DNA from: Atriophallophorus winterbourni
Lineage: Eukaryota; Platyhelminthes; Trematoda; Plagiorchiida; Microphallidae
Direction of reading: 5' to 3'
DNA: 64,000 nt
Assembly (NCBI GenBank): GCA_013407085.1
Contig: JACCGJ010010804.1
Location: 60,806-124,805, forward strand
Shown here one piece after another: positions 4,831-43,270 of this stretch. A program made the translations under genes and the position numbers. Each line of letters starts with the position of its first letter. Within the stretch, counting starts at the first letter, position 1. Below the pieces are notes generated by a model, which was given only the letters and a program-made list of their open reading frames with translations, was not told where the DNA came from and made no database searches.

Positions 4831-4848
4831 TGCCTGTCGTATCACAAA
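4831..4848 (+). CDS. Micro-exon, 18 nt, phase 1
   Basis: Acceptor ttctaaaacattccag, donor gtaagt. In phase 1 it reads PVVSQ between split codons. The ideal donor and symmetrical length make this the most 5' exon I trust. Confidence 0.55.
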
Positions 4849-5749
4849 GTAAGTCAAAGTTATCAATATTTATTTAAAAAAATAAGTATATTGCAAGTAT
4901 GTGTTCTTTTGACAGACTGGATTGTAGGGAGCTAAAGTGAAAGTTTACAAACATCGAAATTTCTCTGGTATCTATAAAAGCAGCCACCTATTCATGAGGT
5001 AAGAAGTAAAAGCTTAGATAAGTGATCATGCAAGTAAATTATATTTAAGTCATCGTAGCGATAGAAGTAAATAGATTTCTAAGTTTCTGATTTCTCCGTC
5101 TTTATTAATCTCTCATAAATTTTACATCAAAAATCAACTAATTTTATCTGGATTCCATCGAATACGGCGTCGCGTTTTAAACACCGCAAGATATCCTCCA
5201 GACATTCATATTTTGCGTCATCTATGTCTGGAATTGAATGTGACTTGAAACTCCATTTTGAACCCAACGATCATTCTAGCTTATATATATATATAGATCA
5301 ACATTCAACACTTTTATATTTTGAGTGGCGTTCATATTCAGTTAATGTGAATATTTGTGCCGATGATGTAGATAGAGTTCCGAATGTTACGTTTTTCTAA
5401 ATGCGGTTGAACGAGCACACATGAAATCTGGTTGCTGGTAAAAAATTATATAAAATAATCAATGATTGCCTATGAGGAAATCAGTTTTATGTTGTGTTTC
5501 ATCATAACGAGATCTACTCCAACACCGAACATCGTATGAATAAGCAAATTTTAGCTCTGAATGAATTATTGGATTACCTATTCAGTAGGGACTTAACAAT
5601 AACTTGATACGATAAAAATCTTTGTTCACATAGCTAACATTGAAAATTTACAAATAATTTCTTGTTTCCGCTTTCAGTAGTTTGACAAAGCATATTACGT
5701 TTCAAGTTGTCCTTGTATTCAACTGTTGAATAAGGCTGCTACGACCAAC

Positions 5750-6030
5750 AGGTCTTCGGGTTTTTGTGATGGAAATGCATGCAAATGAGCTTTTTCGTTC
5801 ATGGTCAGGGATTTCAACCCTGTCTACATGAGTGTGGACTCGTGTGATTAAACAGGTTGGTCGTACAAGCCTTATCAAACAGTGTCATACAAAAACAATT
5901 TGTTTACGATTCTTCCACTGTTTCAAGAGAATATGGATCCTGATCCTACTGTCCTTACCCGATGAGTGTAAACAACACGGAAACGGTCATGGTGTGTGTG
6001 TGATGAAAATGCATGCAAATGAGCTTATAT
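5750..6030 (+). repeat. SINE-like family B copy
   Basis: The same direct repeat gtgatgRaaatgcatgcaaa occurs at both ends (5767 and 6000), with the gatttcaaccc box and an inner hammerhead-like segment cCGATGAG-tgt-aaaca-aca-cGGAAAC. One core base is changed and one inserted relative to the consensus core. Confidence 0.65.
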
Positions 6031-6556
6031 TACGTTTCGTTTAGCATTTATGTAAATGTAGACTGAATGAAGAAACAACTGTCTGCTTTTAAAATTCCTG
6101 CCATGACGATTTAACAATGATACAGAGTCTGATAAAGTTCTTACGGGCCAAACATGAAACACTTGAACGCGCTTTTATAATAATTGCTCGAGACCATCCG
6201 GACCATTACAAATACATTAAAAGTGATATTATACTGATGTAAAGTGCATCAGTATTGATTGATTATCTTGAGCTTCCGCATGGTATGAAGAATAACAAAC
6301 TCAACCATGGCGCAAGGGCAGAAAGCACCGAAAGGACGGATATGATTAATTTGAAACGGTAGAACGTTTGTTGAAATTAAGACGCTATCGAAAGTGAATG
6401 TGAAACGTGGGGAATTATGCAAACAATATTGCATCCATGATGCTCGGGTCATGTGCAAGCAAAGTGGAAGACGTTAGATTTAGTATTGCAATATGGCCTT
6501 AATATAATTGACGCAATTTGATCTTTTCCCTCACTCTACAATATTACCGATTTTAG

Positions 6557-6565
6557 CTGATGTTG
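6557..6565 (+). CDS. Micro-exon, 9 nt, phase 1
   Basis: A long pyrimidine-rich acceptor (ending ccgattttag) and a gtaaga donor enclose only 9 nt. Phase 1 gives D-V between split codons. Splice signals are strong for so small an exon, but coding support is negligible at this length. Confidence 0.4.
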
Positions 6566-7845
6566 GTAAGATCCTTATGTTTATATGCTCATCTGGTACA
6601 CTTCGGTAATTATGTTATAATATTTTTGAACACTGTAGTTGTTACAATCGATGCATCTGCTTAAATGTATTTGTTTCTTTCTTAAACCATGAAGATTTGT
6701 TCGATAATTTTCAAGTGCGGAGACGATGGTTTCATTTATATCATTATGGTGTGCAATTTCCAAATTTCGTTAACAAGCTAAGATGACCGAACGTATCATT
6801 GATTTCGTACAAAGAAATTTGAACAGTAGTTTGCTTTAATCCATTAACAACACTACTCGCACTACAAAAGCGAAAGCAAATCAAGATCGAATATTTTTAA
6901 TTAGATTTATTGATAAGATATCTGTGATTTTACAAATTTTAATTGATTTACCAATCATCAAATGTTTCTGGGTTGGGTATATATAATTCTATTACAAAAT
7001 GATATAAACTAATTTATGGGTCAGTGTTTTCGTTATGATTACGAATTTGTTTCTTCCACTGGGCTCGTTATCTCAAAGCAAAATAAAAATGGTCTCAGAT
7101 AGTGATATAATACTGAAAATCCTGCAGCACCTACACACTTCCGCAATATTTGTTTCGTGTTTCTAACAAAATGTGAACCTTATCTATTTCGATATACCTC
7201 ACTTTTAACGATAAAAGTTTTACATGAAGAACATTTGAAGGGTTAAATCTATCGGTATTATGTAGGATTAAAGATATTGCGGTCTCCGCAAATCTCACTA
7301 ACGATTTCAAAAGTCTACCAAACGTTTAAGAGGAATAATGAACACTTGTATAGCCACACACCTTTCCGTTAATACATATGAGACTAGTTATTAAGGTTGC
7401 GTTACATTCTTGTGGAAACTGATTATGGAAATCTTTCCGAGAATTTATTTAAGCATTATGAAAATACCGTGCCTTCAGAACAATTCTTGAATAATATTAC
7501 ACTTGGTAGTTACGCCTGAGAGTTTACGAAAATGAAATGACAGCCAAATATCAGATACATTCGCTGCATTTCACGGAGAATATGATGCGACATTTCGAAA
7601 CGTGGATTCTGAATATCACTGACATGTTAATTTTTAATTAATTTTAACGAATCTATTAATTCCTAATAGTAATATATGTTCGAATTTCATCAATTACAGA
7701 TGGAGATGAATTTATGTGTAGGTCTACCAATAATTTTTCCCATTACTAGATGAGCAATCTATTTGATTTTTGGTATATTTATTGTATCCATTAATTATAA
7801 ATATTTTGGAATTCATAATAATTATCAATGACGTTTGAATAATAT

Positions 7846-8223
7846 ATATGTCACAATGTTATACTTGTATTCCACTGAAACATAGTGTTCGTACAACGAA
7901 CCACGATGTTTAGACACAAAATCACAAAGTGATTCTTGGTCAAGCACTCAAAGCGCTTATGGATGACCAAAATAATGTGTTGCTCACATCTCCATCCATT
8001 ACACAACACAAAATGAGTCGCTGTGATTCGGTGTTTGAACACCATGGTTCGGTGTACGAACCCTATGTAACAGTGGCATACAAGTATAACCTTGTTTACC
8101 ACTTTACCACTGTTTCAAGGCTCACTGAACCTGATCTTACTGTCTCCACCTGACGACGGCAAACAGCCAGAAACCGGTAGTGAAGTGTAAGGGATGGGGA
8201 TGTGAGCAATATGTCACAATGTT
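7846..8223 (+). repeat. SINE-like family A insertion with 15-bp target-site duplication
   Basis: The 348-bp element (7861-8208) is flanked by atatgtcacaatgtt at 7846-7860 and 8209-8223. That length of duplication fits LINE-driven retroposition. The two halves are partly inverted copies (ttcgtacaacgaacc and ttcggtgtacgaacc arms). The 3' half carries a hammerhead core. Confidence 0.8.
8133..8195 (+). ncRNA. Hammerhead ribozyme (type I), family A
   Basis: Core CTGACGA (position 7 is variable in hammerheads), stem II CGGC-aaaca-GCCA, GAAA, then CCGGTA with cleavage expected after that A. Stem I is split: CCAC pairs with GTGA (one mismatch), then an internal loop, then CTTAC with GTAAG. Stem III would be the self-complementary ACCGGT, which may need a dimer. 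Hammerheads of this kind are known in schistosome SINE-like repeats. Confidence 0.6.
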
Positions 8224-9039
8224 CGTCATTTAAATAAGTATTGATGAGCTTATGATAATATGTTAGCAATTTAATTATAAATTTAATGAGAGAAAAATGA
8301 ATTTTATCCATTAATAATGCGGAGTTCATCATTTTTCGTCATTCACAGCAATTTTACATTACGCATAATGAAACTAATGTTCGAAAATTCGCTTTTTCTA
8401 ATTCCTCATCGTACGACTAATAGATCCTTCACAACACGAGCGGGTAAATTGGTAAACGCACTTGGAGATTGCCTAATCAGGTATCCGGTCTTTAAGCTGC
8501 TGTCTGATTACCAGTATGCTGCATCTGTAGTTCGGGATGAATAAACCTTGAGACACGGTGACAGTAAAAACTAATGTTTCTACATCCCCGGAGTTGATTG
8601 TATAAAATCTGTTTCAGAAAAGTGAATGGTTCGATCTAAGCCTATCTGATTGGTATGGCCCACCGAATGTAACCTAAAGATGCGTCGACATTGTTTACAT
8701 CATTCCACACAGCGAGAATTTACAGGAGGAATGTGTTATTTATGCTCAGCTTATGCTTTCAGCGACAAATTATTCGTGATCATTTTATGATCAGAGCCTG
8801 CACACAACGAACCATTTTATTCAATATCACAAGTCATTAATGAATATTATTATTATTATTTATTATTCAATTCTTACTTTGATTATGTGCGTATTTGATG
8901 TTGAACACCGAAGATGCTATCTAGCAATTTTTTGTCTTTTACTCATGAAAATGGAATTTTTCAGCCAAAATCAATTCATCTCATTTCGCAGTTTTCATAT
9001 TAATGATGGATAAGAAATCATAGTCATTATTTTTTTGGT
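8224..9039. other. Intronic sequence, nothing recognised
   Basis: AT-rich, with short (att)n runs near 8843. The open frames here look fortuitous. Confidence 0.45.
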
Positions 9040-9190
9040 GCCCACATCACTATCCCTTACACACAAATAACTGTTTCTGGCTGTTTGCCGTCATTAGGTG
9101 GAGACAGTGAGATCAGTTCCCGTAAACCTTGAAACACTGGTATAGTGATAAACAAAAATATGTGTATACCACTGTGAAATAGGGTTTTCA
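9040..9190 (-). repeat. SINE-like family A fragment
   Basis: Antisense copy of the ribozyme-bearing half, with ctgtttctggctgtttgccg and gtggagacagtgagatcag. The core reads CTAATGA, a change at an invariant G, so it is probably inactive. Confidence 0.6.
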
Positions 9191-9559
9191 CGAAGAACCA
9201 TGACATACTGTAAGGTCATACAATACATTTGTGACTAATTACTATCGAAATCGATTTCATATGAAGATACAACGTTTTATAACCATTAGAAGGTTTACCC
9301 TCAGCCCAAAATTCTTGGATAAACCGAAACGCTTGAACAACCTAAATTAAGATACTGCATTCGAAGAAATTTGTTCTCAAGCACAAGACTTCATGCCGGA
9401 TTTTGAAAGAAAACATTGAGACACATTAAAGTTCGACCTTTACATTTGTGCTACAACAACAGAATGAAGACGCAAACAAAAACGGATCGATTCTTTCACA
9501 TTTGTTGACGAGATTATCAATGTATTTTCTTTATTGTTCAAAAATGTACCACTGATAGA

Positions 9560-10540
9560 AAACGTTTAGATTTTGTGTGATGCAATTGCGCGTCAAATTT
9601 TCTATTTTCCCGTTTCAATCAACATGTTGAGAGAGCTACTTCAAAGATACAAAATGAACTTACAACGTCAATTACAATGCAAGATTTTTCGTCATACATA
9701 TACGGGTTACCATGGTTTCGTCTCTACGACTCAAATATACTCGTTAATTGCATTAGAGACTTGGACATCGAAACCTTGCTCACATATCATTAACCATACA
9801 CATGTTAACAGCCTTTTACTTACGAACCTAAAAACAACAAACGTTGAGCATTTGTTGGCATTTTACTTACAACAAATCTGGACTAACCTTGGATTAGTCC
9901 GGAGAACAACTTGCTCCAGGCAGTATACACATTTCACGAGCGCTATTGAAATGAAGATTAACCAAAATATGATGCATAAACTATTCAAGCTAGCAACTCA
10001 AATTTGCTCTGAATAGAATTTTGTTGAAGATCTTGCGCTGAAAAGCAGTTTATAATCAGAAATGGCTATCCGTCGTGTCTCATTGTACGATATATGCACT
10101 CAATGTCAAAAGGAATATCTATAACAACATTACAAGACAGAACTTTAAATCGTTTGCTTCAATTCGAAGGCGACGACTCTAGTGACTCCTTAAAGCTTAG
10201 ACCTTAATAAATAGTTCAAAGTACGTTCACTTCTGAGAATTGCGGCAAAACCATCACCAATAGGCCAATATTCAGACTCCAGCTTAATGACCGACTACCA
10301 CGTCAGACAACTTCAATATGTATTTATCAATTCACCTGTTCCTGTGGAGCATTATACATTGGCTTAATTATGAGGAAGCTAGAAAAGCTGGAAAAAAAAG
10401 AAAAAGACTGTTCTAAGGATGTGAATGGTTCAAATTCATCTAATGTGATTAACACAGACCAACGAGTAAATTCTAGACAGGCGTTCCCGTTTGTTTGCTT
10501 GCTTCCTAACAACATTTCAATCAAAATTGGCTAGAACATA
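9560..10540 (+). mobile_element. Penelope-like element fragment (RT remnant and GIY-YIG)
   Basis: The 147-codon open frame at 9573-10016 has INMLRELLQRYKMNLQRQLQ and an FRHTYTGYHGF stretch resembling, weakly, the Penelope reverse transcriptase region before its GSPLG motif. About 300 bp on, a second frame reads CIYQFTCSCGALYIG, the start of a Penelope GIY-YIG endonuclease, and further on VNSRQAFPFVCLLPN, a typical C-terminal stretch. The catalytic region is decayed. It lies in an intron of the micro-exon gene. Confidence 0.6.
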
Positions 10541-10925
10541 ATGCAAAAATATGAGGCGATTGCACAAAAAACTATTTAAACAATAATTATGACTAGTGCG
10601 TGATCTTGTCTTACCTAGTTCAACACCAATATCGTCCAAAATATTTCAAATAACAACACATGAAATTGAGTTTGGTTCAATGGTTGATACCGATCAGATC
10701 CATTTCTATTTTCTTACGCTTGTATTGTACAGCTAGATAAGAAATACCGAGAAGAAATCCATCATTTCCTTAAGTTTTTCCATAAATTGTTTTATTTTGC
10801 AGTCCTAGTTCCATTGGTTCATTCATTAAGTAGATTATGAAGAAGAAAAGAGGATCAGTTCTGTTAATAAAGCAATACATTTCCGATATATATTTTGTAA
10901 AAATAAGTATATTGCTTGATTGCAG

Positions 10926-10952
10926 TAGAATACACTCCCGGAGAGGAATCAG
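10926..10952 (+). CDS. Micro-exon, 27 nt, phase 1
   Basis: Acceptor attgcttgattgcag, donor gtaatg. Phase 1 reads EYTPGEES between split codons; phase 0 starts with a stop. It is followed after a 52-nt intron by the next candidate exon. Confidence 0.7.
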
Positions 10953-11510: not shown

Positions 11511-11599
11511 GTAACTACTCACCCAGGCTCACATTCTACATATTCGTCAATAATTTTTTGACAAGATCACTAAACACGTCGGAATTATTTTATTCTCAG

Positions 11600-11614
11600 T
11601 AATTCCTGCCTACG
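11600..11614 (+). CDS. Micro-exon, 15 nt, phase 1
   Basis: Acceptor ttattttattctcag and donor gtgagt are both near consensus. Phase 1 reads IPAY with split Val and Gly codons. Confidence 0.65.
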
Positions 11615-11783
11615 GTGAGTTACAATATCCGGAATTTAAAGTTCATTGCCATTAGTTTGATTTTAAATATTTTTGCATTTGTGTTTTTTAAATTAGTTTT
11701 GTGTTTGATCAACTAAGACTCGTGACTTATCTCATAATACGTTCCCGTTTGCTGAATGTTTGAATTAATCCTCATATTTTTAG

Positions 11784-11804
11784 TTTCTGTGAAAACGAAC
11801 AATG
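11784..11804 (+). CDS. Micro-exon, 21 nt, phase 1
   Basis: Acceptor cctcatatttttag, donor gtaatt. Phase 1 reads SVKTNN between split codons. Only 68 nt of intron separate it from the next exon. Confidence 0.6.
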
Positions 11805-11872
11805 GTAATTTGGAATTTTTATATACCTTTTTAATACTGTGTGCTTTTGTCCTAACATTTCCACCTATTCAG

Positions 11873-11911
11873 CAGTTTCGGTGGTTTTATTTTGGCCAAG
11901 TATTCGAGCAG
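11873..11911 (+). CDS. Micro-exon, 39 nt, phase 1
   Basis: Very strong pyrimidine tract (tcctaacatttccacctattcag), donor gtagtt. Phase 1 reads VSVVLFWPSIRA between split codons. The acceptor is a NAGNAG tandem (agcag), so a 36-nt form lacking one residue is possible. This is the most hydrophobic segment of the gene. Confidence 0.65.
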
Positions 11912-11989
11912 GTAGTTTTATAATGAAAACACTTCTTTCGAGTTCTAAAATATACTTTTTCCCAAGTAATAAACAACTTTTTCTCATAG

Positions 11990-12004
11990 TGGAACAATTT
12001 GGAG
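11990..12004 (+). CDS. Micro-exon, 15 nt, phase 1
   Basis: Acceptor aactttttctcatag, donor gtaagc. Phase 1 reads EQFG between split codons. Confidence 0.65.
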
Positions 12005-12300
12005 GTAAGCTTAAACCGTAAAGATATCAATAAATTCAATCGCAAGTTAAGATTATTTTTATACCAATTTTAATTATTGATTGGCTACCATGGAATCAAT
12101 TATATAATTTAACTGAACCTATTTCCATTTTACCTAATAAATTATAAGCAATCCGTCTTTAAAACGTTCCATGAGTATAGCCTACACTAGATCCGAATGA
12201 AAATTTAGAATAAAACATGAACGACCACATTGAAAGTTAACGTACTTACGATTCGCAAAACATTCAATAATTTCTCATGTTCTGAAATCTTTGTCTTTAG

Positions 12301-12315
12301 TTAATGCAGAAACAG
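12301..12315 (+). CDS. Micro-exon, 15 nt, phase 1
   Basis: Acceptor atctttgtctttag, donor gtgtgt. Phase 1 reads NAET between split codons. Confidence 0.6.
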
Positions 12316-12912
12316 GTGTGTACAACTTTCATACATCATAAAAATTTAATGCACAAATTAGAAATTTGAATAATCTGAAAATAACACACTGAATTGTTAT
12401 ATTTTTTATATTTTAATTTTTGCATGCACTTTACTTTAATCATTGTGTAATTGTTTATAGTCAACTTGCCAACGTCAATTTCATTATCCTAAATAAATGA
12501 AACAAATATAAGACATAGACATTAATGAACGCATGTTCACATTTGATGGGATTTTATACAAAATATGGAGCCGGGAGGTAAAATTTAATTTAACCTTACT
12601 TATACTAGAAGAAAGCTTGGTTATTATATTCGAAATCAATTGAAATCCTGTACCATAATATTGGTTTTGGAATAAATGATTTAATTAAGAATATGAACTA
12701 CATAAGATGAAATTTTATGACGCCAAATGTTTTCGAATAAAAAGTCTACGGAAATATCAAAACTCTGTCGAGACGGAGTGTAATTTTGTTTCTTGCACCC
12801 ACTAAAGTTCAGTGGTGTTAAACACATATAGTTATGTTTCCTGTATTAACACTCGTCTATGTTCCGTGACAAGATGACCGAATTAAATAAAATATTGCGA
12901 ATTTCATTTCAG

Positions 12913-12948
12913 TAACCTACGATTGGCAATCCAATTTAGCAGTCAGAG
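12913..12948 (+). CDS. Micro-exon, 36 nt, phase 1
   Basis: Acceptor gaatttcatttcag, donor gtaaac. Phase 1 reads TYDWQSNLAVR after a split Val codon. The resulting VTYD recurs at the start of the exon at 34945, suggesting exon duplication. Phase 0 begins with a stop. Confidence 0.75.
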
Positions 12949-13151: not shown

Positions 13152-13415
13152 TGTTGTGTTTTTGGAGCGAGTTCCGGCTGACCCAACACTCACGAAAGTG
13201 GTAAAAGACGACTGACAGAATGCATCGTTTTATTTACAGCTCATTTGTATATATATGTACAATTAACCAACTAGATGAACGAAAGTGAAGCCAAGCTACT
13301 GAAGCCGAGCTGCTATATTGATTCAAATCGGCGAGTTATGTTCAATTGATTAAAAACGATCAATACTTCCAAAGCAGTGCGAGTTTTGGCGTGCCTAGAT
13401 TGAACGACCTTGACA
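13152..13415 (-). repeat. 3' LTR of the Gypsy element
   Basis: Plus-strand ends are tgttgtg...ccttgaca. The last 40 bp match 15032-15071 with two differences, and both outer flanks are atgtc. Confidence 0.75.
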
Positions 13416-15071
13416 CCTCCCCCTGCGAAAAAAGGACGTTCACCTTCGGTCTATGTACGCCTTGTTTCTTGGATTGATTTAAAATGGTTGAACCATTGTT
13501 CTTCTTCGTGTTGGGTATCTTCTTCCTAGTGTCTCGTCTGTGCGATGTTGTTCAGCAAGACGGTTTTCGACTCTTTGCCTTTGTTCATCAGTGCTGATAG
13601 GTTCATTTTGGGAAACATGCGGTGCCGACGCATGGGAATTGTTATACTGCTTTCGTGAACCATGAGTTGCGTTTTTCCGTGAAGCATTCGCCTTAGAGCC
13701 ACGTAGACCACCTGTACCGCAAATCGGTTACTCTTTATAGTCGCTTGATCTTGTGAAACGGCCACGAATAAATTTGCTTTCTTTATAGTTCCAAGAACGG
13801 TTTTCGCGACGATTACCTTGCTGCCTGCGTGGTTGTTCATTACGAGTGTTGATTGTTCTTGGAAGCCTAGCAGCGTTTAGAAAGACTGCGTTGGGAGTTG
13901 TCTGCTATGCAGAATCTTTGTCACCTTGATGCGATTCGTTCCGGATACGTAACCATGTTTGCGTATCAACTGTCGATTTGTTCTTGATGAAGAATTCGTC
14001 TGGCAAACAGTTGCGGTTTTTGTTGAACACAGATCTTTCAAAGGCAGACTAAGTAAATTTAGCCGGTAGATCCAATCTATTCCAAGCAAATCGGGTTTAT
14101 CATTAGGCGTCAAGTAAACTAAACCAGTTGCTTGCTCGCTATTGAAATCCATCTCACAAGTAAGTTGTCCGTCAATCCGCAGTGGTTCACCAGAGGCATT
14201 TCGCACATTTATTTCCGTGGGATAGACAGTTGGGCAGCCAATCTACTTCCATTTCGAGCGGGAAATTAATGTGACGTCTGAGGCTGTGTCGATTTGCAAC
14301 GAAACGGTCATGCCTTGAATTCTCACTGCGACATATTTACGTCTGCTTTCCAAATCTGCTTCAAAGGTTGCAATGACAGCATCGATTCTGCCCCGGTTCC
14401 CATTCGATTTAGGATTATGAAGACGCTTTGCACCGGTTCGATATTTTGTTCTGCAATGTGACCCTTTGTGACCAATGCGCTTGCACCTGCGGCACTTATA
14501 AGTTCTGAACGGACAATCTTTCGAATAGTGTCATCCACCGCAATTCCAACAGGCACTTTTGGGTTTCAATCACTTTTTGGGAGGACTTGTGAACTACTGT
14601 GTGCTGCTGTGTTCCTGTACACTTGAGGCTCTATTTTCTGTCCGGCGCTTCCAATCAACTTGGTATCATGCTTGAGGTTCAGCATTCTGTGACATTCGGC
14701 TGCTATGTCTTGAAGGGTAATTTCTGGCTCGTGCTCCAGTTTGTTCAGAATTCTTGTTCGAACGTCTGCGTCTGCTGGTGATTGAAAACTGCAAACGAAG
14801 ATTAAGCATTTGAACTGATTTGGTGTCATTGAACCGAACTTGAATCTTCCACACTCTCAATTGATGATAGCAGCATGCGTAGTGTAGTCGTCTGTTTCCT
14901 TTTTCATCAGTTTGAGACAGTTGTAACAAATGCTGAATAAGGATGATTGTTCTTCAAAGATTGTCGTGAGTGTTTCAATGGTTTCGTCAAAGGTGAACTC
15001 TCGAGCACATTTTGGAAGAATATAGTCAGCGAGTGCGAGTTTTAGTGTGCCTAGATTGAACGACCTTGACA
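13152..15071 (-). mobile_element. Internally deleted Ty3/Gypsy retrotransposon
   Basis: A 264-bp 3' LTR (13152-13415, TG...CA) is flanked outside by atgtc (13147-13151). The far end retains 40 bp of the other LTR (15032-15071) followed by the same atgtc (15072-15076), a 5-bp target-site duplication. Read on the minus strand, Gag-type sequence includes two CCHC zinc knuckles (14440-14550, one with a stop) and then an aspartic protease with active-site DTAS near 14290. RT, RNase H and most of integrase are missing. A purine-rich tract adjoins the LTR at 13416-13424. Stops and frameshifts show it is dead. Confidence 0.8.
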
Positions 15072-17376: not shown

Positions 17377-17406
17377 GTTTGCTCACGGATGAAGAATACA
17401 TCGAAG
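17377..17406 (+). CDS. Micro-exon, 30 nt, phase 1
   Basis: Acceptor atttacataccacag, donor gtaccg (weak at +5). Phase 1 reads LLTDEEYIE between split Gly codons. Confidence 0.55.
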
Positions 17407-30825: not shown

Positions 30826-30861
30826 CAAATGTTGCCGAAGTCATCGAACCGTATCCAGACG
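30826..30861 (+). CDS. Micro-exon, 36 nt, phase 1
   Basis: Acceptor gtaattttatttcag, donor gtaata. Phase 1 reads NVAEVIEPYPD between split codons. A 68-nt intron follows. Confidence 0.8.
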
Positions 30862-30929: not shown

Positions 30930-30956
30930 TCATAAATAGAACAATAGAATTCAACC
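30930..30956 (+). CDS. Micro-exon, 27 nt, phase 1
   Basis: Acceptor ccactgtcatttttcag, donor gtgagt. Phase 1 reads INRTIEFN between split codons. The N-R-T triplet is a potential N-glycosylation sequon. Phases 0 and 2 contain stops. Confidence 0.8.
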
Positions 30957-31734
30957 GTGAGTAATTTCGGTTTTCGTTTTTAAACAAATTGCTCATACAT
31001 ATTTGATGAAAAGCTGATCTTCAATAATTAGAGATGGGAAATCATCGATTGCATGAACTGAATTATTTGTAATAAAAGATTCAGTCCTTGACACATTTCA
31101 TAACAACGACATTTTTATAAAAATAAGTTTGATGGAACCACAAATATTATTGCGTGCAATTTCCATATCAGTAGTATATTCAGCTCAAAATTGAAATTCT
31201 GTTTAAGGTGCATCCTACCATTATTTGATTTACAAAAGTGAGTTTTGAAATAAAATACTAAAATTTCATCGTCTCTATAACATAACAAATTGTTTAGAAT
31301 AAAAAACTTTCGAATTTATATAAATAAATATTATGCAAGCATCATCAAAAGCTACACCTATAGTGACTTGATACCATGTCTCTAAACTTGGGTGCAGATA
31401 CGATGACTTAATCAATAAAGATTAAAATCTAGAAGAAAATGTCATTTTAATAAGCTTTAAATCTACGATTTATCATACTAGTTTCAAAAAAAGGAAATAC
31501 TAAATTTCTTGCATAGTACGCGAGAAGGTGTATCCGGTCTTGAACAATCTGATTTTCATTGAAATAATTTTATGTGTACCGAAGTGTTGAGAATCAGTTC
31601 CACTTAACCATAATTTGTTCCATAGCACATTAAATTTCTCACCTGAAAAATATCTTATTTTTGGGTTTATGCATCTGCGATGACTACTGCATTGGACGAA
31701 AAACGGTCAGTGTTCTGGTAAAGTAAACAAATGC

Positions 31735-33150: not shown

Positions 33151-34483
33151 TCAGCCAATCTTTTACATTATGTGGATGAAAAAAGCACCGAATGGTTAAG
33201 TGCTATCTGAAGTTGATCAACAAAGCATGTTTACCGACCTGCTCAGGACAAAAAGAAACAAATCTCAAGCAGTTCGGCCAAACATAATTATTTGCGGATT
33301 TGATAATGTCCCTTGCAATTGCAGTTCGTTATCAACAATGCTAGTGATTACTGGCCTATGTGTACATGTAGGTTCGCAGGACCCCAATTCTGAATAAACA
33401 AGCACAAACTACGCTAGCGCATCATCACACGTTTGGATTGGGTTTAAATGCTTTTATCCATCCTGAAGCGTTTGGAGTAATTATTAACATCATTAATATT
33501 TTTCCAAGCGATTCAAAGAGACAACTTCAAAGGTAACATAGATAGTTGCTAAAGCATTTGATTTAAAACTTTGGATTTTTAACTTCGCCGATTCTATACA
33601 TAACGAAATAATTTATCTTCGACTATCCTATAATGAAAGGCATTAATTCTGTCCATTATTGCATTTTACATTGCGGTTAATATTCGAATTGACACCTGAA
33701 CCGTTATCAAAATCTCAAGAGACTGTCGTGTCAGTTGTTAGATTCGTTTCCATTAGTTTTTGGTGAACAAGAATCATTTATTTCAGCATTCATTTCTCGA
33801 ATAAAATTCATCAAAAATCATGAGAATTTCTTAATAGCTAGTTGATCATTGTTCCTTTCCGCTTCTAACTATACAAATTAAAGAAACGCAGTATTGTCAT
33901 GCGAAAAATGAACGGTCATCCTTATTCACACAACACGAATGACCGCATATATTTGCTACAAATTATCCTGAAACCCGAATGATGGTGCAACATGTTCTTG
34001 CTGGTCATCCAATGCCTGTCAATTCGCAATCGTGTTTCACCTTCAGATACACGGGATTGTCTAGTTGTTCACGTGTGTGCCATCAATATTCAACAGGAAT
34101 AACCATATCGTGTTGTTTGAGTATATGACAACTGCTTACTAAATGAGACTATCTTTATCAATCCAAAATATTTGTTTACAAATACAAAATTTCGGAAATT
34201 TCACCATGGAAGAGCTATTAGCCTAATAAATAAATCCGAAGATCCTATAACCTCCGATAGTTCTATTGAGGCAACTTTAAAATCTATTGTTTGACAAATT
34301 TGCATTGAGTTTCAATGTTAATTGGTCGAATATCATTCCTTGTTTTACATATCAAAAAGGGTCATTCTAATTTTTATGTTTTTTCAATAGTTACCAAAGT
34401 TTTGCGTACTACTTTCGAACGAATTCTTCGTAACTGTCAAACGACCATAACCATTTAATCTAAATTGATCTGTATAATTTTAG
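33151..34483. other. Intronic sequence, nothing firm
   Basis: One 54-nt segment after gaatcatttatttcag (33787-33840) is open in phase 1 but its donor gttgat is poor. Confidence 0.35.
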
Positions 34484-34513: not shown

Positions 34514-34543
34514 GTAAAAATCATTTTCATCGTGTGCGTTTAG

Positions 34544-34573
34544 CTCATGTCGCGTTTGTGCCGGATACTACAA
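34544..34573 (+). CDS. Micro-exon, 30 nt, phase 1
   Basis: Acceptor ttttcatcgtgtgcgtttag, donor gtatgt. Phase 1 reads HVAFVPDTT between split codons. It supplies the A that begins the Met codon completed by the 17-nt exon at 34654. Confidence 0.72.
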
Positions 34574-34653: not shown

Positions 34654-34670
34654 TGTCAATCTACATACAA
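34654..34670 (+). CDS. Phase-switch micro-exon, 17 nt
   Basis: Acceptor tcatttttcactccgcag, donor gtgcgc. Read from phase 1 it gives SIYIQ after a split Met codon and ends exactly on a codon boundary. Seventeen nt is what is needed to join the upstream phase-1 exons to the downstream phase-0 exons; without it the next exon reads into a stop. Fitting both sets with one small exon strongly supports the gene model. Confidence 0.75.
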
Positions 34671-34944
34671 GTGCGCAAACGTCTTTCTAATTATAGTTAT
34701 ATTTTTACAATAATTGATTCAAAATTTGACTGAGTATGCAATGCATTTTATTTAACATTACCGCTGTTTTAATTACCATAGCTGTATACGATACATTAGT
34801 ATTTCCTATTTTTTTAAATCAAATTGATAGCAATGATAACCGAATTTAGGATCACATACGAAAAAAACTAATTCAAATTTCCCCAAAATGTAACTCTCTT
34901 TTTTCCCATTTTACTTTGTGGAACTACTTTATTTGTCATTCCAG

Positions 34945-34974
34945 GTAACGTATGATGGAGATCCAGTAGATACT
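34945..34974 (+). CDS. Micro-exon, 30 nt, phase 0
   Basis: Acceptor tatttgtcattccag, donor gtaagt. Reads VTYDGDPVDT in phase 0; phases 1 and 2 contain stops. Starts with the same VTYD as the 12913 exon. Confidence 0.8.
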
Positions 34975-35190
34975 GTAAGTTAGCCATAATTGAACAAGAG
35001 TAACATTATAAATATGTCTCGCACACGCAATAATAAATGCAGATGTTTATTATTGGTGCAAATGTTAACAGTTCCGCAGAAAAATTAACATTTCATTTTA
35101 GTAATAGGTTATAAACATCTCATTCAACATTCACATATGTCTGTGTATTTGAAGATCGCTAATATCGGAATATCAATTTGAATATTTTAG

Positions 35191-35241
35191 ACACCAATTG
35201 ACGTCACCCATTGGGTTATACGATCGTTGCATCAAAACCAA
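35191..35241 (+). CDS. Small exon, 51 nt, phase 0
   Basis: Acceptor caatttgaatattttag, donor gtaaat. Reads TPIDVTHWVIRSLHQNQ in phase 0. It is the longest internal exon of the gene. Confidence 0.75.
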
Positions 35242-35321
35242 GTAAATCACATTAAATTATTTTAGCTGTTTTCCATTTGTTAATTTCCACTGCTGAGTAT
35301 ATGTTTACGCTCCGTTCACAG

Positions 35322-35351
35322 TTGAATGTCTACAACAATTATTTTTTTGAC
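35322..35351 (+). CDS. Micro-exon, 30 nt, phase 0
   Basis: Acceptor acgctccgttcacag, donor gtgagt. Reads LNVYNNYFFD. Confidence 0.85.
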
Positions 35352-36036
35352 GTGAGTCCTTATTTTCAGACGAAAAAGAACACTCCGTTTTTGTAAATTC
35401 CATATGGGTAAACGTGAACCATACAATTTTGACAAATGGGTTTATTGAATATAAATGAGAATCGTGTAGAAATTTGAAAATCACTTGCTGTTAGTAAAGT
35501 TTCAATATTATATGTAGTACTGTATATGATCCATATTATTCCTTAAATGTATGAGCAAATAACATGAATCTGTTATTCAATTGATAAGCGTGTAAATACA
35601 GACACTTGCACAAGATTGATTGTGTAAACGCTGATAAAATATTTTTTATTAGATTGAACTGGATGATATTTTTGGTTTAGTCATGCACATGCCCACTACG
35701 ATAAAATAAGATGCGGTTGTCTAGTATAATACTTAATCAGTAGTAATCAGCAGTCAGGAAATATCAGTCAAAATGATGTGGAATGTTGCTGAATGACTGG
35801 GAACAAAATCAGTCGATAAATTCGTTGTTTTAATCATCTGCGTAGTTCCATACACTTTAAAACTCGAAGGATGAAATATATTTTGTGCGAAAAATATTTT
35901 TTGAAGCAGTGCAGGGAAATAGACATGGTTAAGTCTAATTTACAAGATTTATAATTTGGTGAAAACCATATCTCGTTATCAATCTATATTTTCGTATGAA
36001 AACTGAGCGAAATTCATTTTGTAAAACAATTTCCAG

Positions 36037-36066
36037 CAATTAGGAAAAGAACGGGCAGAAACACAA
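36037..36066 (+). CDS. Micro-exon, 30 nt, phase 0
   Basis: Acceptor gtaaaacaatttccag, donor gtgagt. Reads QLGKERAETQ. Confidence 0.83.
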
Positions 36067-36270
36067 GTGAGTGTTACAATTTCTAAACAGAAAACATCCC
36101 TGGAAGTAGTTTGGTAACATTTTCGCACAATAATTATTCATATTTGAACTCTTATGGATGCCACGGAACGTTTAAATAACATATTATTATTTACACTTAC
36201 CAATCTTTCTTCTATTTTTATTAATTTTCATTTTTCCTCGAAATATTTTGATATAAATTTTGTTTTCTAG

Positions 36271-36288
36271 CCGCCTGTGTATTATACA
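36271..36288 (+). CDS. Micro-exon, 18 nt, phase 0
   Basis: Acceptor ataaattttgttttctag, donor gtgagt. Reads PPVYYT. Confidence 0.83.
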
Positions 36289-36470
36289 GTGAGTGATATG
36301 GTCAAGAAATTCTGTAGAAATTTCCTCTCACATTTCATTATCGCTAAATTCATTGGAATTTGTCAACGCGGTGAAATCAATAGCACCAGTGTTATTTGAA
36401 GATATTCAAATATTCGATTAAATAATTATTGTAATTTATCATTTATAATTCTTTATTTCTCATTAATTAG

Positions 36471-36500
36471 CCCACGTATAATATTCGGAGAGCTTTCATT
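36471..36500 (+). CDS. Micro-exon, 30 nt, phase 0
   Basis: Acceptor tctttatttctcattaattag, donor gtgagt. Reads PTYNIRRAFI. Confidence 0.85.
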
Positions 36501-37591
36501 GTGAGTACATCTACAATTATTACTTTGTGCCTTCGAATGTTATTTCTCACATTTTGCTGAATGTTACTCTATTTATTGCACTATATTGCCTCAAACTATA
36601 AATGGACCATTTTAACGCCGAAAAAGTATTTCCACACTCATGTTTACAAAATTGAAACGAAAAAATATATACCTATGTTCTATAACATTTCTGAAACAAG
36701 CTTAGGTGGTGCGTGTGGGTGAGAGGTTGGAAATCATTGCGGTAGACCATTTCAGGTTAATGATTGGCAGCTGGCCTACATATCTGGTCTCTTATCAGAA
36801 CATACGGGTCATTGGTCTAATTAGAAGCACTTCACTCTCCTTGGTTCACAGCCAATTGAACAATGCGTCCTGATGCATGACTGAGGTTCAACTCTGATCG
36901 CGTTCTTCCAAGAATCCACAAAACATGGCAAAGCCGATTGGACTGACTTGCATATTACGCACCAGAAATCAAACATTAGTTCAGTCTGATTTCTGTTGTC
37001 TCGAAAGCCGCAGTTATTGGTAATTTGCTCCCAAGTATGAAAGAAGAAATTATCCCGATATATCAAACTGTAATTTAACAGGACGATTGGCTAAAAAGAT
37101 TTACTGAAACACTTTCCTAGCAAAAAATTAGCTTGGGAAATATTTCGTTTTTATGTATTTGTCAAATTGGTGTCAACGATTATTCTATATATTGTCCTGG
37201 CGTTATTTAAAACAAATTTAAAACTATCTTGAGCTCGCTCCTGGCGAATTTCTTTAATCCGTTTCAATATCTATTATTGCATTTCAAATCTTATCAAACA
37301 TTTTCATTGAGCCGAACCATCATATCTTTTTTAAACAGTGTGAAATACTAAAAATGTCAGTGCATATAGAATGACCGTTTGATAGACTCGCTAAATTTAT
37401 ATGTTTGAATTGGTCCTCTCGGTAAATGATAAGCCCGAAAGATTATATACATGAATTCACGTGCTCCCTTTAAATAAATCAACGTGAATTAAAGACACGG
37501 ACAATAAGGTTTCGAGGAACTATATAAATATTAGCACCAATAAGATCGATTTGCTGAAATTTGTATTTTAAACGAAGCGTATTTCATTAAG

Positions 37592-37621
37592 GTTGGGAGC
37601 GGACATATGCCTCCAACATTC
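37592..37621 (+). CDS. Micro-exon, 30 nt, phase 0
   Basis: Acceptor gcgtatttcattaag, donor gtgagt. Reads VGSGHMPPTF. An 85-nt intron follows. Confidence 0.75.
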
Positions 37622-37706
37622 GTGAGTCAAAAAATTGATTAACCTGATTAAATATGGCTTGTTTCATGTATTCTTTGTTTATATGTGATTATTGACCATG
37701 TTGTAG

Positions 37707-37736
37707 TACGAAGCCTTGTTGAATCCTCCGAACTAT
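37707..37736 (+). CDS. Micro-exon, 30 nt, phase 0
   Basis: Acceptor attattgaccatgttgtag, donor gtgagt. Reads YEALLNPPNY. Confidence 0.85.
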
Positions 37737-38214
37737 GTGAGTTGCATATATTAAACTCGCCGATAATAAATGATTGCTTAATCCGCACACTTAAATATGA
37801 CACTCAGCAAATATGATCAAGCTCTTCAAAATTTTCGCATTTTGAATTCAGTTTAAGCGAAGAGTAATGAGAATATATCGAACATTTCAAATCTTAATCG
37901 AACTGCATGCGAATGAGCTGCTTTTATATTTTCAAGATTAACTTACAACCATCATTTCTGTGTAAGCGATGCAGAATTTTTCTCCGGGAAAATCTACAGA
38001 ATTTCATCGTGGCTGTCAACCGTTATTTCTTTAAAATATTCTTATTCAAAAATTTTGCCACGACCGTGAGAACGTAAGAAAACAAAGTATTCATGACAGA
38101 AGATATATTCAGTTATCATGCCTTTTGAATTATTTGGCTGACAAAATAAATTTGAGGTCGGCATATATGTGAAAAATTAAATGATATACAAAAGTACTAA
38201 TACAGAGTAACATG

Positions 38215-38530
38215 AAATCGAAATGGTGTAGTCGCCTTAGCAATCGATTGGAATAGGTTTTGGACACATCGTGTATTCATAATGCAAAGAAAGTTGAGTG
38301 CAATCGGTTAGAGGATGTTTTGGGTTAGACACCTTTATCTAGCTCCACAGAATCAACTGTAAGGACAGTTCGGGTGTTTACATAAGGGAGACTTCCAGGA
38401 AAATTCATATTCGTATCAAAAACACCGATAGCGTGTCCAGCGACAGCCCCGGAATGCGAGGGAATATCAATCCCTTATTCGTAATTACGCCATGGTAAAG
38501 CAAGTCTTAGATACGGGCCACAGCGTTGGT
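38215..38530 (+). mobile_element. Possible LINE C-terminal fragment
   Basis: Plus-strand pieces such as KLSAIGQRMFWVRHLYLAP resemble the W-x-GHVLRM tail of RTE-like LINEs. Weak. Confidence 0.3.
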
Positions 38531-39622
38531 TTAGACAATGTAAAAATATAAATACACTGTATTAAACCGTATAGCAAACTCCTAAATGCTGAGTCGTTCC
38601 ACCTCATACCTACTAGTTAATTAGATTCATGTTTTTCTTTAAAATTTGTTTAATTATAGCACCGTTAGTTATGCGCGTTTACGCATGTAGGCCACTGTGT
38701 CAACCGACCTTGACTGTGTTCACTTTCATTAGATTGATGTGGATACACACTAGCAGGCAAATGGACCACTGATCCTGGTCATGCGTACGAGACGTGACAC
38801 ACCGTTGGCATACTATAGACTGTCCAGTGGTGATGGTAAATCAGTGGTGGTGGGTTGACTGCTACTTAGTCATGTTCCCTCTCCTGACTATCACCCTTGG
38901 TCTGACGAAGCTTCTGTGTCAAATGTCAAACGTTACCCGAAACCTGCTTTAACCGATTGCACGCACATTTCTTTGTCCTCTTTGTTTTGCGCTGAGAAAT
39001 ATACCGGAGCACTTAAATATAGAGAACAAACAGTTTCTAGAACAGGAAATTCTCCTGTTACATGGAGGTGAAGAAACAGCTGAGCTATTAAATTTGGATC
39101 ATGTCTTTGGAGGAGATACCACAAGAAAAATCAACAATTATTACAAAATAACTAAAATTTGTTTCGAGCCAATATTTTTAATCGAGGTTAAATCCAGCAG
39201 CATTTACCACAAGTCACTAAACGTTCCAAAAGTATGATTTCACTATTTCCATTACCATTTTATGAGCATCGAATTTTCAAAGCAAACTGATTTGTAGGCG
39301 AAAGTCGTTCGATTTCTTACTTCCACTCATTAGTAGAAGCTGTCCCGCCAGGCCACACAGGGATGGGACTGCACATTATGAGCTCAATTTTGTCGCAGTT
39401 TTAATGCGGCGCTACCCTTACGTGTATTTTAAAAATGGGAGCTTGATTCCCAAACCACTCAGTGAGTTGAATTTAAATTATTTAGAATTTTTATTTGAGA
39501 ATCGAACGCGCATTGAATTATAAAATGCTTATATGTTTGCATTTTAATCCATAGTCACTAAATATTCTATAGGATGCAGATCGTTCTGTTATTCAAACGA
39601 GTAAACCCACCAAATTTTTCAG

Positions 39623-39649
39623 GTTAATGAAAGCATATTACCCAGCTAT
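39623..39649 (+). CDS. Micro-exon, 27 nt, phase 0
   Basis: Acceptor accaaatttttcag, donor gtgagt. Reads VNESILPSY; N-E-S is a potential N-glycosylation sequon. Confidence 0.8.
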
Positions 39650-39889
39650 GTGAGTCACATCGTTTCAAGTAAACATTTCATTGTCAGTCAACCATTATTC
39701 TGTTTATGTTCTTGCATTCTTACAAAAAACTTACACTATTCCTTCAGAATCAGTCGTGTTACTGTTTCGCTCTCACAAATCATGATCACACAAATACCAG
39801 GGTTATGTGAGAGGCTGTTGATTGTATATTCAGCCTCAATAAGTCGAATTTGAATGATAAACATCTTCCTTGGGACATCAAGAAGCATT

Positions 39890-40350
39890 TGAATGAGAAA
39901 TGCGTATTTACATGCATTTCCATCACACACGCACAACTCAACAAGTCTTGTGGTTTTTGCTCTCGTTAGTTACAGACAGTACGAACAAAATTAGTTGGCT
40001 CATAAAATCGGAAAAATTGTAAAGATTTGAGCATGTAAGCCAGTGTTGGATGAGAACGGTGAGACTGACCTGTGTAATTACATGTGCTATTACAAATATG
40101 GATTGAGATAAACGCATGGACTCAGAACAAAAATTCGTATATGAAAATATTCTCATCACAAACGTACCGAGCTGTTTGCACTCATTATGTAAGGACAGTT
40201 CGATCACTATCATCATGCCTTTAAATTGTTGAAAAATTGTTCACAATTAGAGTTTATAGTTTATTTTTGGATAAAGCTAATAAGACCAGTCTGTGTGGCG
40301 ACATTTGTTTGAACAGGTTGGACGTACCAGCTTTAAACAACAATGACTTA
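39890..40350 (-). repeat. Degenerate SINE-like family B copies
   Basis: tgcatttccatcacacacgcacaac and tttgcactcattatgtaaggacagt mark two decayed halves in a micro-exon gene intron. Confidence 0.5.
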
Positions 40351-41427
40351 CTACCTCGCATTGTTTTGTAATCAATTAAATTCATCTGGAAATTCTCTAC
40401 CCAACGAAACCTTTTAAGCTAAATTTATCATGATTTTATGAAATGTTATTACGACGTATGATCGAAGTATTCTTCAGTATTTAAAGTTCTAAATCGTCAA
40501 GTGATTTGTATTGCATATCTCAAAAAACGTCAAACATAAATTATTCATTGATTCTCGAATCAAAATTATTATTAGTAATAATTTGTATGAATATGCAATC
40601 AAATTAATATAATTATGCTGAATAAATCAGGAGGATTACATGCGAATGAGGGTAGGTTGAAATTTTCGCATCTTTCGAATGTCTAACTCTAAATAAGTAA
40701 CTCATCATTGAGTGGTCGTATTGTAACGGGTTGTGATGAACGGCTGGAAATGACAGCTAACGAATATGTGGCCCATTATTGTTATATCCGGTTCATGAGT
40801 CCAATACTAACCACGTCCTGCGCAGCGTCTCGCTTTATCTCGGGACCAACCTGTCCAACGTTAACTGCGTTCACTCACGAATCCCAAAACACAAGGGAAA
40901 CCGGTTGGTCAAAGGCGATGGCTACGCAAAAGACGAATGAAAAAATTATCTAAGTTATAAAGGCAAATCAAACAAGCACAACAATGATAAGGAAGCATGT
41001 TTGTCCGGATTGTTACCTCGATCTGATTTGACAGTCGATTTCGTACCAACGCGAACACTTTGAGCCCTCGCCACGCAGACTAGTGTGGGCGAAATGGATA
41101 AATTGCATATAATTTGTTTGTTCTCATACTTCTAAAAATACAGTCACCGGTGCCGTTCTAAAGCAATTCTTACGAAACTTGGAATATTAGGGTTTCGCAA
41201 CTGTCGTCGTCGGTATTTTCGGTGCTTCCTGCTTTTGTGTTGTGCTGTAGGCTAATGTTCTGTATATCATTCGTGATCAGCACTCATCACTAATGAACAT
41301 CACAGTTCCACATTATGAACTATGTTTTAATTTTATCTAAAAGTAATATAATTCAAGATTCAAGATTTATGTTTGAAAAAAAGCAATTAAAATTAGAATG
41401 AACACTGTTTCGAATTATAGGAACAAA

Positions 41428-41458
<31 letters not shown>

Positions 41459-42524
41459 CATCGCCTGAAACTGAATGGTCTAAAGTGCTGTTGGCGTACG
41501 ATTTCGTTGTTTGTGTCGGGTTTACGTGTTCTTTAGTTTGATATATGCGCTAGCAACGGGAAGTCACGTTGGTGGGGTCATTATCGTCTACTTTTTTCAG
41601 GTTTTCCTTCAATGAGCGATAGCTTCCTTCGATTGCCAATAGAAAACTATCATGTATCGCTTGTTTGAGTTGAAAATACACTGGTTGCATGCGAGCTTCT
41701 AACTAGGAAATGGGGTTAAGTTCGATATTTTGAAACATAAATCAAGGTTGACGATTCTCGCCCCTGAACTCACTCCCCAATTATCTTTGTCTACAGTTGC
41801 TGGGTCGCAGAGGCCTCGCGAACTGTGTTTGCTTTCGGAGCTGATGTAGCAAATTTCCACAATAAAATCGTCTTTCATTATATTCATCGCTCCCTTCGTC
41901 AAGGTTGTATCGCAGCCAGAGCCGACATGATAGGTCACAACACGTGTCTTAGCAGTTAGTCCTTTCGTACAGGTTTGCACTTTTGTCTTACGGTTTTCTG
42001 ACTCATCGTTTCGCGTTATTATGCGGTCGAGTGTGTTTGTGTGTCCAAGTTAACGGGGCGAGACAATACTTAGTGTAGGTAGTGCAATTACGATCGCTGT
42101 TTTTCAATGAGATGACTTCGACGCAATGTTATGCTAAGGTCAAACTTACAAAAATGATATCGAAAATGCTAAACTTCACAATCAAGAAAAAAATGTTGAG
42201 TTCTTTCGAGTGGATGTAAATTCAACAGTATGCGTCAAAGATTTTTACATTTTTCACGCTCGCTTTTTACGAGGAAATTTATCCCGAATAGAAAACATCA
42301 ACTTGTGTTTCTTTCATTGAGCAAGGATCGTATAATCCGATGGATCTTGACTAGGCGATAATACACTATTTAAATTATCCCTGTATGACTTGGGAACGAG
42401 TAGTATTTCGCGAAAGTGACAGTGCATAAATTTAATTCCGCCGATTACGCGCGCTACGTCACAAGTACAATGACTTTGATACACAATATATTTTAAAATT
42501 ACCACCTGAAATATGATCAAAAAA
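40351..42524. other. Intronic, partly less AT-rich, unrecognised
   Basis: 40700-42060 is less AT-rich than its surroundings and may be an old mobile element, but no coding motif is visible. Confidence 0.35.
41431..41458. repeat. (AT)14 microsatellite
   Basis: Uninterrupted alternating a/t run in a micro-exon gene intron. Confidence 0.9.
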
Positions 42525-42775
42525 GTTTATTTGCATGCATTTTCATCACACACACACCACAACCAGTTTCGTGCTGTTTGCACTCGTCCGGTAAAGTCAG
42601 TAGAATCAGGATCCGCATGTGCTTGAAACAGTAGAAGATTGGTAAACAATTGCGCTTATATGCCACTGTAATATATTGTTGGTAAGACCAACCTGTTCAA
42701 TCACATGAGGCCTTTGTCATGTATTCAAACCCAGTCCACAGTAGCATACAAGCGCAACTTGTTTACCATCTGAAA
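42525..42775 (-). repeat. SINE-like family B copy
   Basis: tgcatgcattttcatcacac, gtttcgtgctgtttgcactcg, gcttgaaacagtag, tatgccactgt and caacctgttcaatcacatgag. In antisense the stem II loop GTGC-AAACA-GCAC and GAAA are intact, but the first core box reads CCGGACGAG. Confidence 0.65.
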
Positions 42776-43140
42776 TATGTTTTAAAGCAATTCTGATTAT
42801 CAACAAAACAAGCAATATTGGAAACGGAACATCCGCAAAAAACTACGACATCAGAGCAATCTGTTCATCGACTCATAGCAAATTATCTTCTAGATTTGAG
42901 CTAATTAAAATGTAATGTGAAACACCGACTTGATAAATATAACGGCCTAAAAACGGAAGGCATATTGTCTACAGTTGCATTCTTTTTAGCATTACCTGAG
43001 AGTGAAAAATAAAATATCAGATTTGAGAAGACCCGAAAAAATCATCAAAATACTTTATTCGACTGTTCAGTGTATTGTTATTGACACAACCTTTTAAGCT
43101 TGATTAAAAAATCAGTTTGATGCTTCCAACTTTATTCCAG

Positions 43141-43164
43141 CCACAACAACAAGACAGGAGGTAG
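43141..43164 (+). CDS. Terminal exon coding part, phase 0, stop TAG
   Basis: Acceptor gcttccaactttattccag opens an exon reading PQQQDRR and then TAG in phase 0. A gtaggt inside could act as a donor giving 20 nt, but the in-frame stop and the AATAAA 87 bp downstream make a terminal exon the simpler reading. Confidence 0.65.
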   Translation, partial: PQQQDRR

Positions 43165-43250
43165 GTTTTTCGGCATTAGAAAGCCAGTTTTATTAATTTT
43201 TTCTAGCGCATTATTTTTCAAGACCCGTGGCTTCCTAAGCACTAACATAA

Positions 43251-43256
43251 AATAAA
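43251..43256 (+). terminator. Poly(A) signal of the micro-exon gene
   Basis: AATAAA about 87 nt after the TAG of the terminal exon, giving a 3' UTR of about 105 nt with cleavage expected near 43270. Confidence 0.55.
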
Positions 43257-43270
43257 GTTGACACTATCTT

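Follow-up and report, generated by a model that had tools for sequence, protein, structure and literature searches.

A micro-exon gene (MEG) was delineated on the plus strand of the window, by which we mean the whole 64,000-nucleotide stretch that was analysed, bases 60806–124805 of the 124,805-bp contig C6960 (window base 1 is C6960:60806). The model comprises 48 exons across 49,069 bp (C6960:54901–103969) and runs from a signal exon through 36 phase-1 symmetrical micro-exons, 11 upstream of the window and 25 within it, a 17-nt switch exon and nine phase-0 symmetrical micro-exons to a last exon. In all, 45 of the 48 exons are symmetrical micro-exons of 9–51 nt, and the switch exon at 34654–34670 is the sole non-symmetric internal exon. 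Introns span 68–7,149 bp (median 542). Coding bases add up to 1,275 including the stop codon, which by arithmetic on the lengths corresponds to 424 residues if every exon is used.

MEGs are described as a numerous and poorly understood class of flatworm genes that is hard for gene finding, and their operational definition calls for at least seven exons, at least half of them micro-exons (shorter than 70 nt and divisible by three), with a run of at least four consecutive micro-exons (PMC7653826, available text). The locus has 48 exons in the model and 36 in the window, micro-exons make up 45 of the 48, and 36 of them follow one another before the switch exon and nine after it; from exon number, micro-exon share and consecutive run the locus is therefore a MEG under this definition. 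The 5' exon at C6960:54901–54967 encodes a signal-peptide-like start as judged from composition, and secretion is predicted. MEGs of the schistosome type are also described with long flanking exons at both ends; the 3' flanking exon here contributes seven codons and an untranslated region (UTR) reaching to AATAAA. We consider it likely that the window holds the larger, 3' part of a functional MEG of a digenean fluke, with a tandem paralogue upstream.

An initial annotation of the window had described about 32 splice-bounded segments between 4831 and 43270. The plus-strand series is real, as seen from the excess of its phase-1 part over the minus strand and over Markov resamples, from codon usage and from conservation in the paralogue. 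The count was low, since 34 exons of the model fall in that span and two more lie at 72–89 and 3672–3692. The gene itself begins to the left of the window, with a coding exon at C6960:54901–54967.

Statistical support for the exon series

Visual inspection of splice context and of the open phase gave the first 28 exons, and for this reason their divisibility by three is no evidence alone. Segments were scored with generic splice weights that were fixed beforehand and not fitted to the finding (score of at least 4). Among short AG..GT segments, 22 of 33 were divisible by three on the plus strand at 4800–34900, whereas the minus strand at 4800–43200 gave 4 of 27; by this measure the two other regions scored were not enriched (5 of 11 in plus 34900–43200; 7 of 18 in plus 44000–63900). 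Positions 1–34900 hold 21 non-overlapping symmetric segments open in phase 1, whereas 60 first-order Markov resamples average 5.4 and never exceed 9. Non-symmetric segments in the same interval were not in excess (17 versus 15.7 in the resamples).

Openness alone leaves the frame unfixed, because segments open in phase 2 (20) are nearly as many as those open in phase 1 (21) in 1–34900. The frame test employed the codon usage of the neighbouring adenylate kinase 8 (AK8) gene, scored in bits. For 19 phase-1 exons, phase 1 scored +6.3 and was free of stops; the other two phases scored −32.1 and −40.1 and contained 10 and 8 stops, respectively. The final 25 in-window phase-1 exons gave −4.0 and no stops versus −37.9 with 14 and −41.2 with 10. 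In eight phase-0 exons the codon score fails to separate phase 0 (+3.5) from phase 2 (+3.4) and only stops decide, with none in phase 0 versus 5 and 4 in the others. These scores and stop counts, together with the 17-nt exon at 34654–34670, agree with the earlier description of one open phase on each side of a single switch exon.

A second tier of 12 candidates was drawn from a fitted splice model, besides two switch candidates. Seven of these were kept after the paralogue check (72, 3672, 6557, 18476, 18769, 31208 and 35322), while 6716, 7128 and 34391 were rejected as a splice dinucleotide is lost in the paralogue; 30254 could not be aligned to it and was not included, and 275–301 was left outside the check. 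Taken as a group before that check, the 11 second-tier phase-1 exons scored −20.4 in phase 1 and −23.0 and −7.5 in the other phases, so that the stated phase is not favoured. A chance series of splice-like segments has next to no probability: three of the 12 second-tier candidates did lose a splice dinucleotide and one could not be aligned, but counts exceed those of the resamples and the other strand, codon usage agrees, conservation surpasses that of pseudo-exons, and the paralogue comparison refutes chance for the series as a whole.

Comparison with the tandem paralogue

The tandem paralogue occupies C6960:1549–45763, roughly 56–64 kb upstream. Its alignment to window −1557 to 46922 is collinear but gapped, at 74–89% identity per block. 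The initial annotation had proposed conservation of exon phase in a relative as a check; run on the paralogue, the check did not refute the gene. Of the 28 exons that had been settled on ahead of this comparison, 26 keep AG, GT and length. The exceptions are 11873, where the paralogue has CG as acceptor and the acceptor 3 nt downstream remains, and 34782. In the refined set 35 of 36 exons keep all three features. Among pseudo-exons of comparable splice score, both sites and the length were kept by 17 of 68 at a score of at least 10 and by 82 of 212 at a score of at least 8. No gap openings were found in 943 exon nt versus 11.1 expected (Poisson p 1.5e-5); in aligned non-exon DNA, 13.3% of sites differ and 330 gap openings occur in 28,077 nt. 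Both copies end in the stop codon, and the compared exons contain no stop. What marks the exons as functional is that they retain their splice sites and are free of indels and stops; the overall divergence rate does not.

Amino-acid change between the copies is uneven across 37 compared exons (chi-square 62.9 versus a simulated mean of 36.0, p 0.0064), whereas synonymous change is even (p 0.36), and ten exons show no amino-acid change in whole codons. The block 17377–21597 (six exons), which was picked after looking at the data, has a nonsynonymous rate (dN) of 0.232 and a synonymous rate (dS) of 0.112. Exon duplication within the gene was not supported, the best pair score being 12 versus maxima of 9–13 in 30 shuffles.

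In the 537-Mb assembly (15,840 contigs) window 11560–12330 has four matches, the window itself included. Two of the matching contigs, C6986 (97.7–98.8% over compared blocks) and C270 (99.8%), match the other copy. Since both are probably alleles or redundant contigs, the number of paralogues is taken as two. C6986:1–18921 has about 4 kb extra between matching blocks, and the matched part of C270 is 1–9672.

The copies also differ in intervening DNA. An intronic insertion of about 1.9 kb at window 13152–15071, absent from the paralogue, has TG...CA ends with ATGTC on both sides and resembles a long terminal repeat (LTR) element. Three stretches of 0.9–1.2 kb at 8321–9528, 19406–20344 and 21626–22782 are absent or far shorter in the paralogue and are possibly mobile-element insertions that followed the duplication.

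The 5' end of the gene

In the 67-nt 5' coding exon (C6960:54901–54967) the ATG stands two codons after an in-frame stop, and the exon ends in phase 1 before gtaagt. It encodes a basic and then strongly hydrophobic start, with a best 11-residue mean hydrophobicity of 2.84, and appears signal-peptide-like. Eleven phase-1 micro-exons follow upstream of the window, at C6960:55107–55124, 55203–55235, 55488–55502, 56045–56059, 57121–57141, 57244–57285, 57397–57426, 57596–57622, 58475–58504, 59164–59193 and 60165–60185. Ten came from the splice scan, and 57397–57426, below the scan cut-off, was read by eye. Together with the candidate 58335 they make 12 upstream candidates, with no stops in phase 1 versus 2 and 12 in the other phases.

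The 5' part of the other copy is found on contig C6986, where the donor and the length of the signal exon are unchanged. Ten of the 11 upstream micro-exons have the acceptor kept, a GT donor and unchanged length in that copy; for one of them the donor is GC in the present gene and GT in the other copy. Conservation carries information chiefly for 55488, 56045, 57244, 57397, 57596, 58475 and 60165, whose flanks are 79–91% identical. Three further upstream candidates were set aside: 59765–59779 lost its donor in the other copy, 54775–54807 lies upstream of the start codon though its splice dinucleotides are kept, and 56551–56583 had no alignment to the other copy. Whole codons of the 12 upstream candidates include four Cys, while the 229 whole codons of 27 in-window exons include none; perhaps the product has a Cys-bearing head and a Cys-free tail.

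Alternative explanations

Several observations weigh against a single functional gene. That the exons are joined in a single mRNA, and that some may be skipped, is what we infer; across the last intron and several long ones, the only links are phase and the matching exon order of the paralogue. Conservation was part of the reason for retaining nine of the 37 exons compared. The conservation of 33521, 6557 and 57121 says little, because their flanks are nearly identical, and likewise that of the signal exon and of the two micro-exons directly following, whose flanks are 96–100% identical to the other copy. Moreover, 59164–59193 could not be aligned to that copy, and 58227–58247 and 58335–58373, which are kept there, were left out of the model as undecided. 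The signal peptide was called on hydrophobicity and composition, with no trained predictor. Taken by itself, the phase-0 part does not rise above chance in the resampling test, because 34900–43300 holds five phase-0 symmetric segments and the resamples (mean 1.3) reach a maximum of 7. Exons diverge at 0.123, nearly as much as non-exon DNA at 0.133. Pooled dN is 0.127 and dS 0.177, and the ratio of 0.72 is no proof of protein constraint because its bootstrap interval is 0.41–1.33.

The last two of these observations would suit a non-functional or partly decayed MEG copy whose exons persist by recency only, as would the loss of both AATAAA signals in the paralogue, which keeps neither that of 43251 nor that of 43285 intact and has ATTAAA at C6960:42220. 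Such decay is hard to reconcile with compared exons that are free of indels and stops, with splice sites kept in 35 of 36 and with exons 10926 and 28747 that show only synonymous changes, and we consider it quite unlikely.

Exon linkage also bears on whether two or more adjacent MEGs are present, with the 5', phase-1 and phase-0 (34945–43164) blocks in separate transcripts. Introns of several kilobases, up to the maximum given above, are consistent with this reading. The switch exon, however, joins both phases exactly and is identical in the paralogue, which also has the same exon order, and no second signal exon or stop/poly(A) exon was noticed between the blocks, where no systematic search was made for one. 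Separate transcripts thus appear improbable.

The micro-exon tail of a VAL6-type gene (group-2 SCP/TAPS, a CAP protein) was an early leading idea. SmVAL6 of Schistosoma mansoni (Smp_124050) has 38 exons over 64,721 bp, conserved phase 1/1 introns in its CAP region and a C-terminal extension of about 295 residues from numerous small same-phase exons, and is without a signal peptide (PMC2270263, available text). It resembles the present gene in having very many small same-phase exons over tens of kb (PMC2270263 and PMC7957364, as far as their available text goes), and the window exons are mostly of phase 1. The fluke gene differs in its 48 exons and signal-peptide-like 5' exon, and no CAP domain was found upstream of the micro-exons: CAP signature motifs were absent left of the window, the contig scan giving one short GENL-type match on the minus strand at window 62748, and none of the four genome matches to PF00188 at E ≤ 0.001 lies on C6960. 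Once the DNA left of the window was examined, the VAL6-type tail was dropped because of the signal-like exon and the lack of a CAP domain on the contig, and it is now very unlikely. VAL-like open frames with CAP-domain matches occur on other contigs of the genome (L001 1426–1698 and L003 1438–1674).

Proposed working and relation to known micro-exon genes

Schistosome MEGs, in the available text of three sources (PMC10526429, PMC4671649, PMC4350168), share with the functional MEG proposed here a 5' exon that carries a signal peptide (predicted in the present gene), a middle part of mostly symmetrical micro-exons, long introns, an occasional non-symmetric exon and occurrence in gene clusters. 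The initial annotation had likened the locus to schistosome genes of this type, and the signal-like 5' exon, the micro-exon run and the last exon with its few codons and UTR agree with the comparison; the animal, however, is most likely not a schistosome, and the likeness drawn is one of architecture. S. mansoni MEGs have 10 to 20 exons (PMC10526429, available text), in contrast to 48 in the fluke model, which also exceeds the 38 of SmVAL6 (PMC2270263). The 424 residues predicted here compare with an average of about 10 kDa for schistosome head-enriched MEGs according to the accessible parts of the three sources above. MEGs of the tapeworms Hymenolepis microstoma and Echinococcus multilocularis conform to the same operational definition and include one family spread by tandem duplication; they belong to cestodes, not flukes, and are likened by description, not sequence (PMC7653826, available text).

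Among the open-licence titles and abstracts listed none reported MEGs from non-schistosome flukes, though at least 23 papers mention MEGs together with Fasciola and absence is unproven. The terms looked for do not occur in the Opisthorchis felineus genome paper (PMC6530080).

MEGs are reported to yield protein variants by skipping micro-exons, and their products to be secreted or membrane-anchored (PMC4350168, available text). In the gene described here, any subset of the 36 phase-1 exons and of the nine phase-0 exons could be skipped in frame because these exons are symmetrical, while the switch exon would have to stay since it changes phase. Two independent blocks of optional exons would thereby surround one required exon. 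The product would be secreted and exist in many isoforms, and isoform choice, gene duplication and uneven amino-acid change may together vary the secreted protein. By analogy with published work on MEGs, the product may act at the host interface.

A more far-reaching reading would have this as the longest MEG described so far, in a non-schistosome fluke, with a combinatorial repertoire (fixed signal and switch exons, two skippable blocks) and with block 17377–21597 under positive selection between the tandem copies; taken as a whole, we hold it to be rather doubtful. In an animal that is most likely no schistosome, the locus offers one switch exon, 45 symmetrical micro-exons and a tandem paralogue for comparison. 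It makes testable whether symmetry is kept for skipping, in which case the switch exon should always be retained, and whether variation accrues one exon at a time. Comparison of paralogues can aid the annotation of such a gene without RNA.

Exons within the window

All exons listed here lie on the plus strand. Among the symmetric phase-1 micro-exons, the first in the window is 72–89 (18 nt), which is a second-tier exon kept after the paralogue check, as are 3672–3692 (21 nt), 18476–18484 (9 nt) and 31208–31237 (30 nt). Two more second-tier exons are 6557–6565 (9 nt), which is weaker, with flanks 93% identical in the paralogue, and 18769–18792 (24 nt), itself identical in the paralogue between flanks of 83% identity. 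Splice score, codon usage and the paralogue support 4831–4848 (18 nt). Codon usage and the paralogue support 10803–10829 (27 nt), 11784–11804 (21 nt), 11990–12004 (15 nt), 12301–12315 (15 nt), 12913–12948 (36 nt), 17377–17406 (30 nt, weak donor), 18377–18394 (18 nt), 30089–30115 (27 nt), 30826–30861 (36 nt), 30930–30956 (27 nt) and 34544–34573 (30 nt).

Against the paralogue, 10926–10952 (27 nt) shows two synonymous and no nonsynonymous changes and 28747–28770 (24 nt) three and none, while 21254–21295 (42 nt) has seven nonsynonymous and one synonymous and 21559–21597 (39 nt) nine and none. Exon 11600–11614 (15 nt) is identical in both copies. Exon 33521–33532 (12 nt) has the lowest splice score of the 28 first exons and flanks that are 97% identical. 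The exon at 11873–11911 is 39 nt long, or 36 nt via the acceptor 3 nt downstream; the two acceptors (11873/11876, CAGCAG) are three bases apart, the paralogue has AG only at the second, and the two gene copies may differ by one codon here.

The phase-switch exon (phase 1 in, phase 0 out; 34654–34670, 17 nt) is identical in the paralogue. It was taken in place of 34782–34798, which has GG as acceptor in the paralogue; this second 17-nt segment has an AG acceptor here, is 100% identical between the copies and is possibly a former alternative switch exon.

The symmetric phase-0 micro-exons supported by codon usage and the paralogue are 34945–34974, 36037–36066, 36471–36500 and 37707–37736 (30 nt each) and 35191–35241 (51 nt). 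Exon 35322–35351 (30 nt) is second-tier and was kept after the paralogue check, 37592–37621 (30 nt) and 39623–39649 (27 nt) are identical in the paralogue, and 36271–36288 (18 nt) has the top nonsynonymous rate among the 37 compared exons. Two PPxY motifs, one in exon 36271 and one in exon 37707, raised the idea of a WW ligand (shuffling gave p about 0.003, for motifs seen before testing). The idea was dropped because the paralogue has LPNY in place of one motif and because the product seems to be secreted.

The coding part of the last exon (43141–43164) holds seven codons and TAG (43162–43164), a stop also present in the paralogue, and the 3' UTR (43165–43290) contains AATAAA at 43251 and 43285, in accordance with the earlier description of an end in a stop with a poly(A) signal. 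Overlapping the stop codon is a sequence that resembles a strong donor, GAG|GTAGGT (43160–43166), with the same letters in the paralogue; use of this donor, if it occurred, would take out the stop codon.

Neighbouring gene and source animal

The AK8 gene adjoins at window 55042–62186 on the plus strand (PDB match 9fqr, E 5.3e-81). Among 75 matches listed its closest relatives are flukes: Calicophoron (52%), Paragonimus (48%), Dicrocoelium (47%) and Schistosoma mekongi (45%). A tree of nine chosen AK8 sequences placed it in the fluke group (seven rows, support 100/99), apart from both schistosomes, and gave no settled position among non-schistosome flukes. For COX1, the best match in the genome lies on C6618; translated with table 9, it comes closest to Prosthogonimus cuneatus at 80%, and the other matches listed reach no more than 73% (best 120 of 7,997 matches). 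The nearness to Prosthogonimus and the AK8 tree place the source animal most likely among the digeneans outside the schistosomes. It is probably of microphalloid type, a superfamily name that we assume for this animal, the species being perhaps Atriophallophorus winterbourni.

A search of Rfam at gathering thresholds gave no matches. Within the AK8 gene, window 61092–62001 holds a 455-bp tandem duplication (99.8% identical) in which exon pieces are repeated; it could be real or an assembly error. The genome further contains 24 COX1-like matches, some being pieces of one copy, on C4859, C4746, C8922, C15234 and other contigs, and many carry TAA or TAG stops, which suggests nuclear mitochondrial copies.

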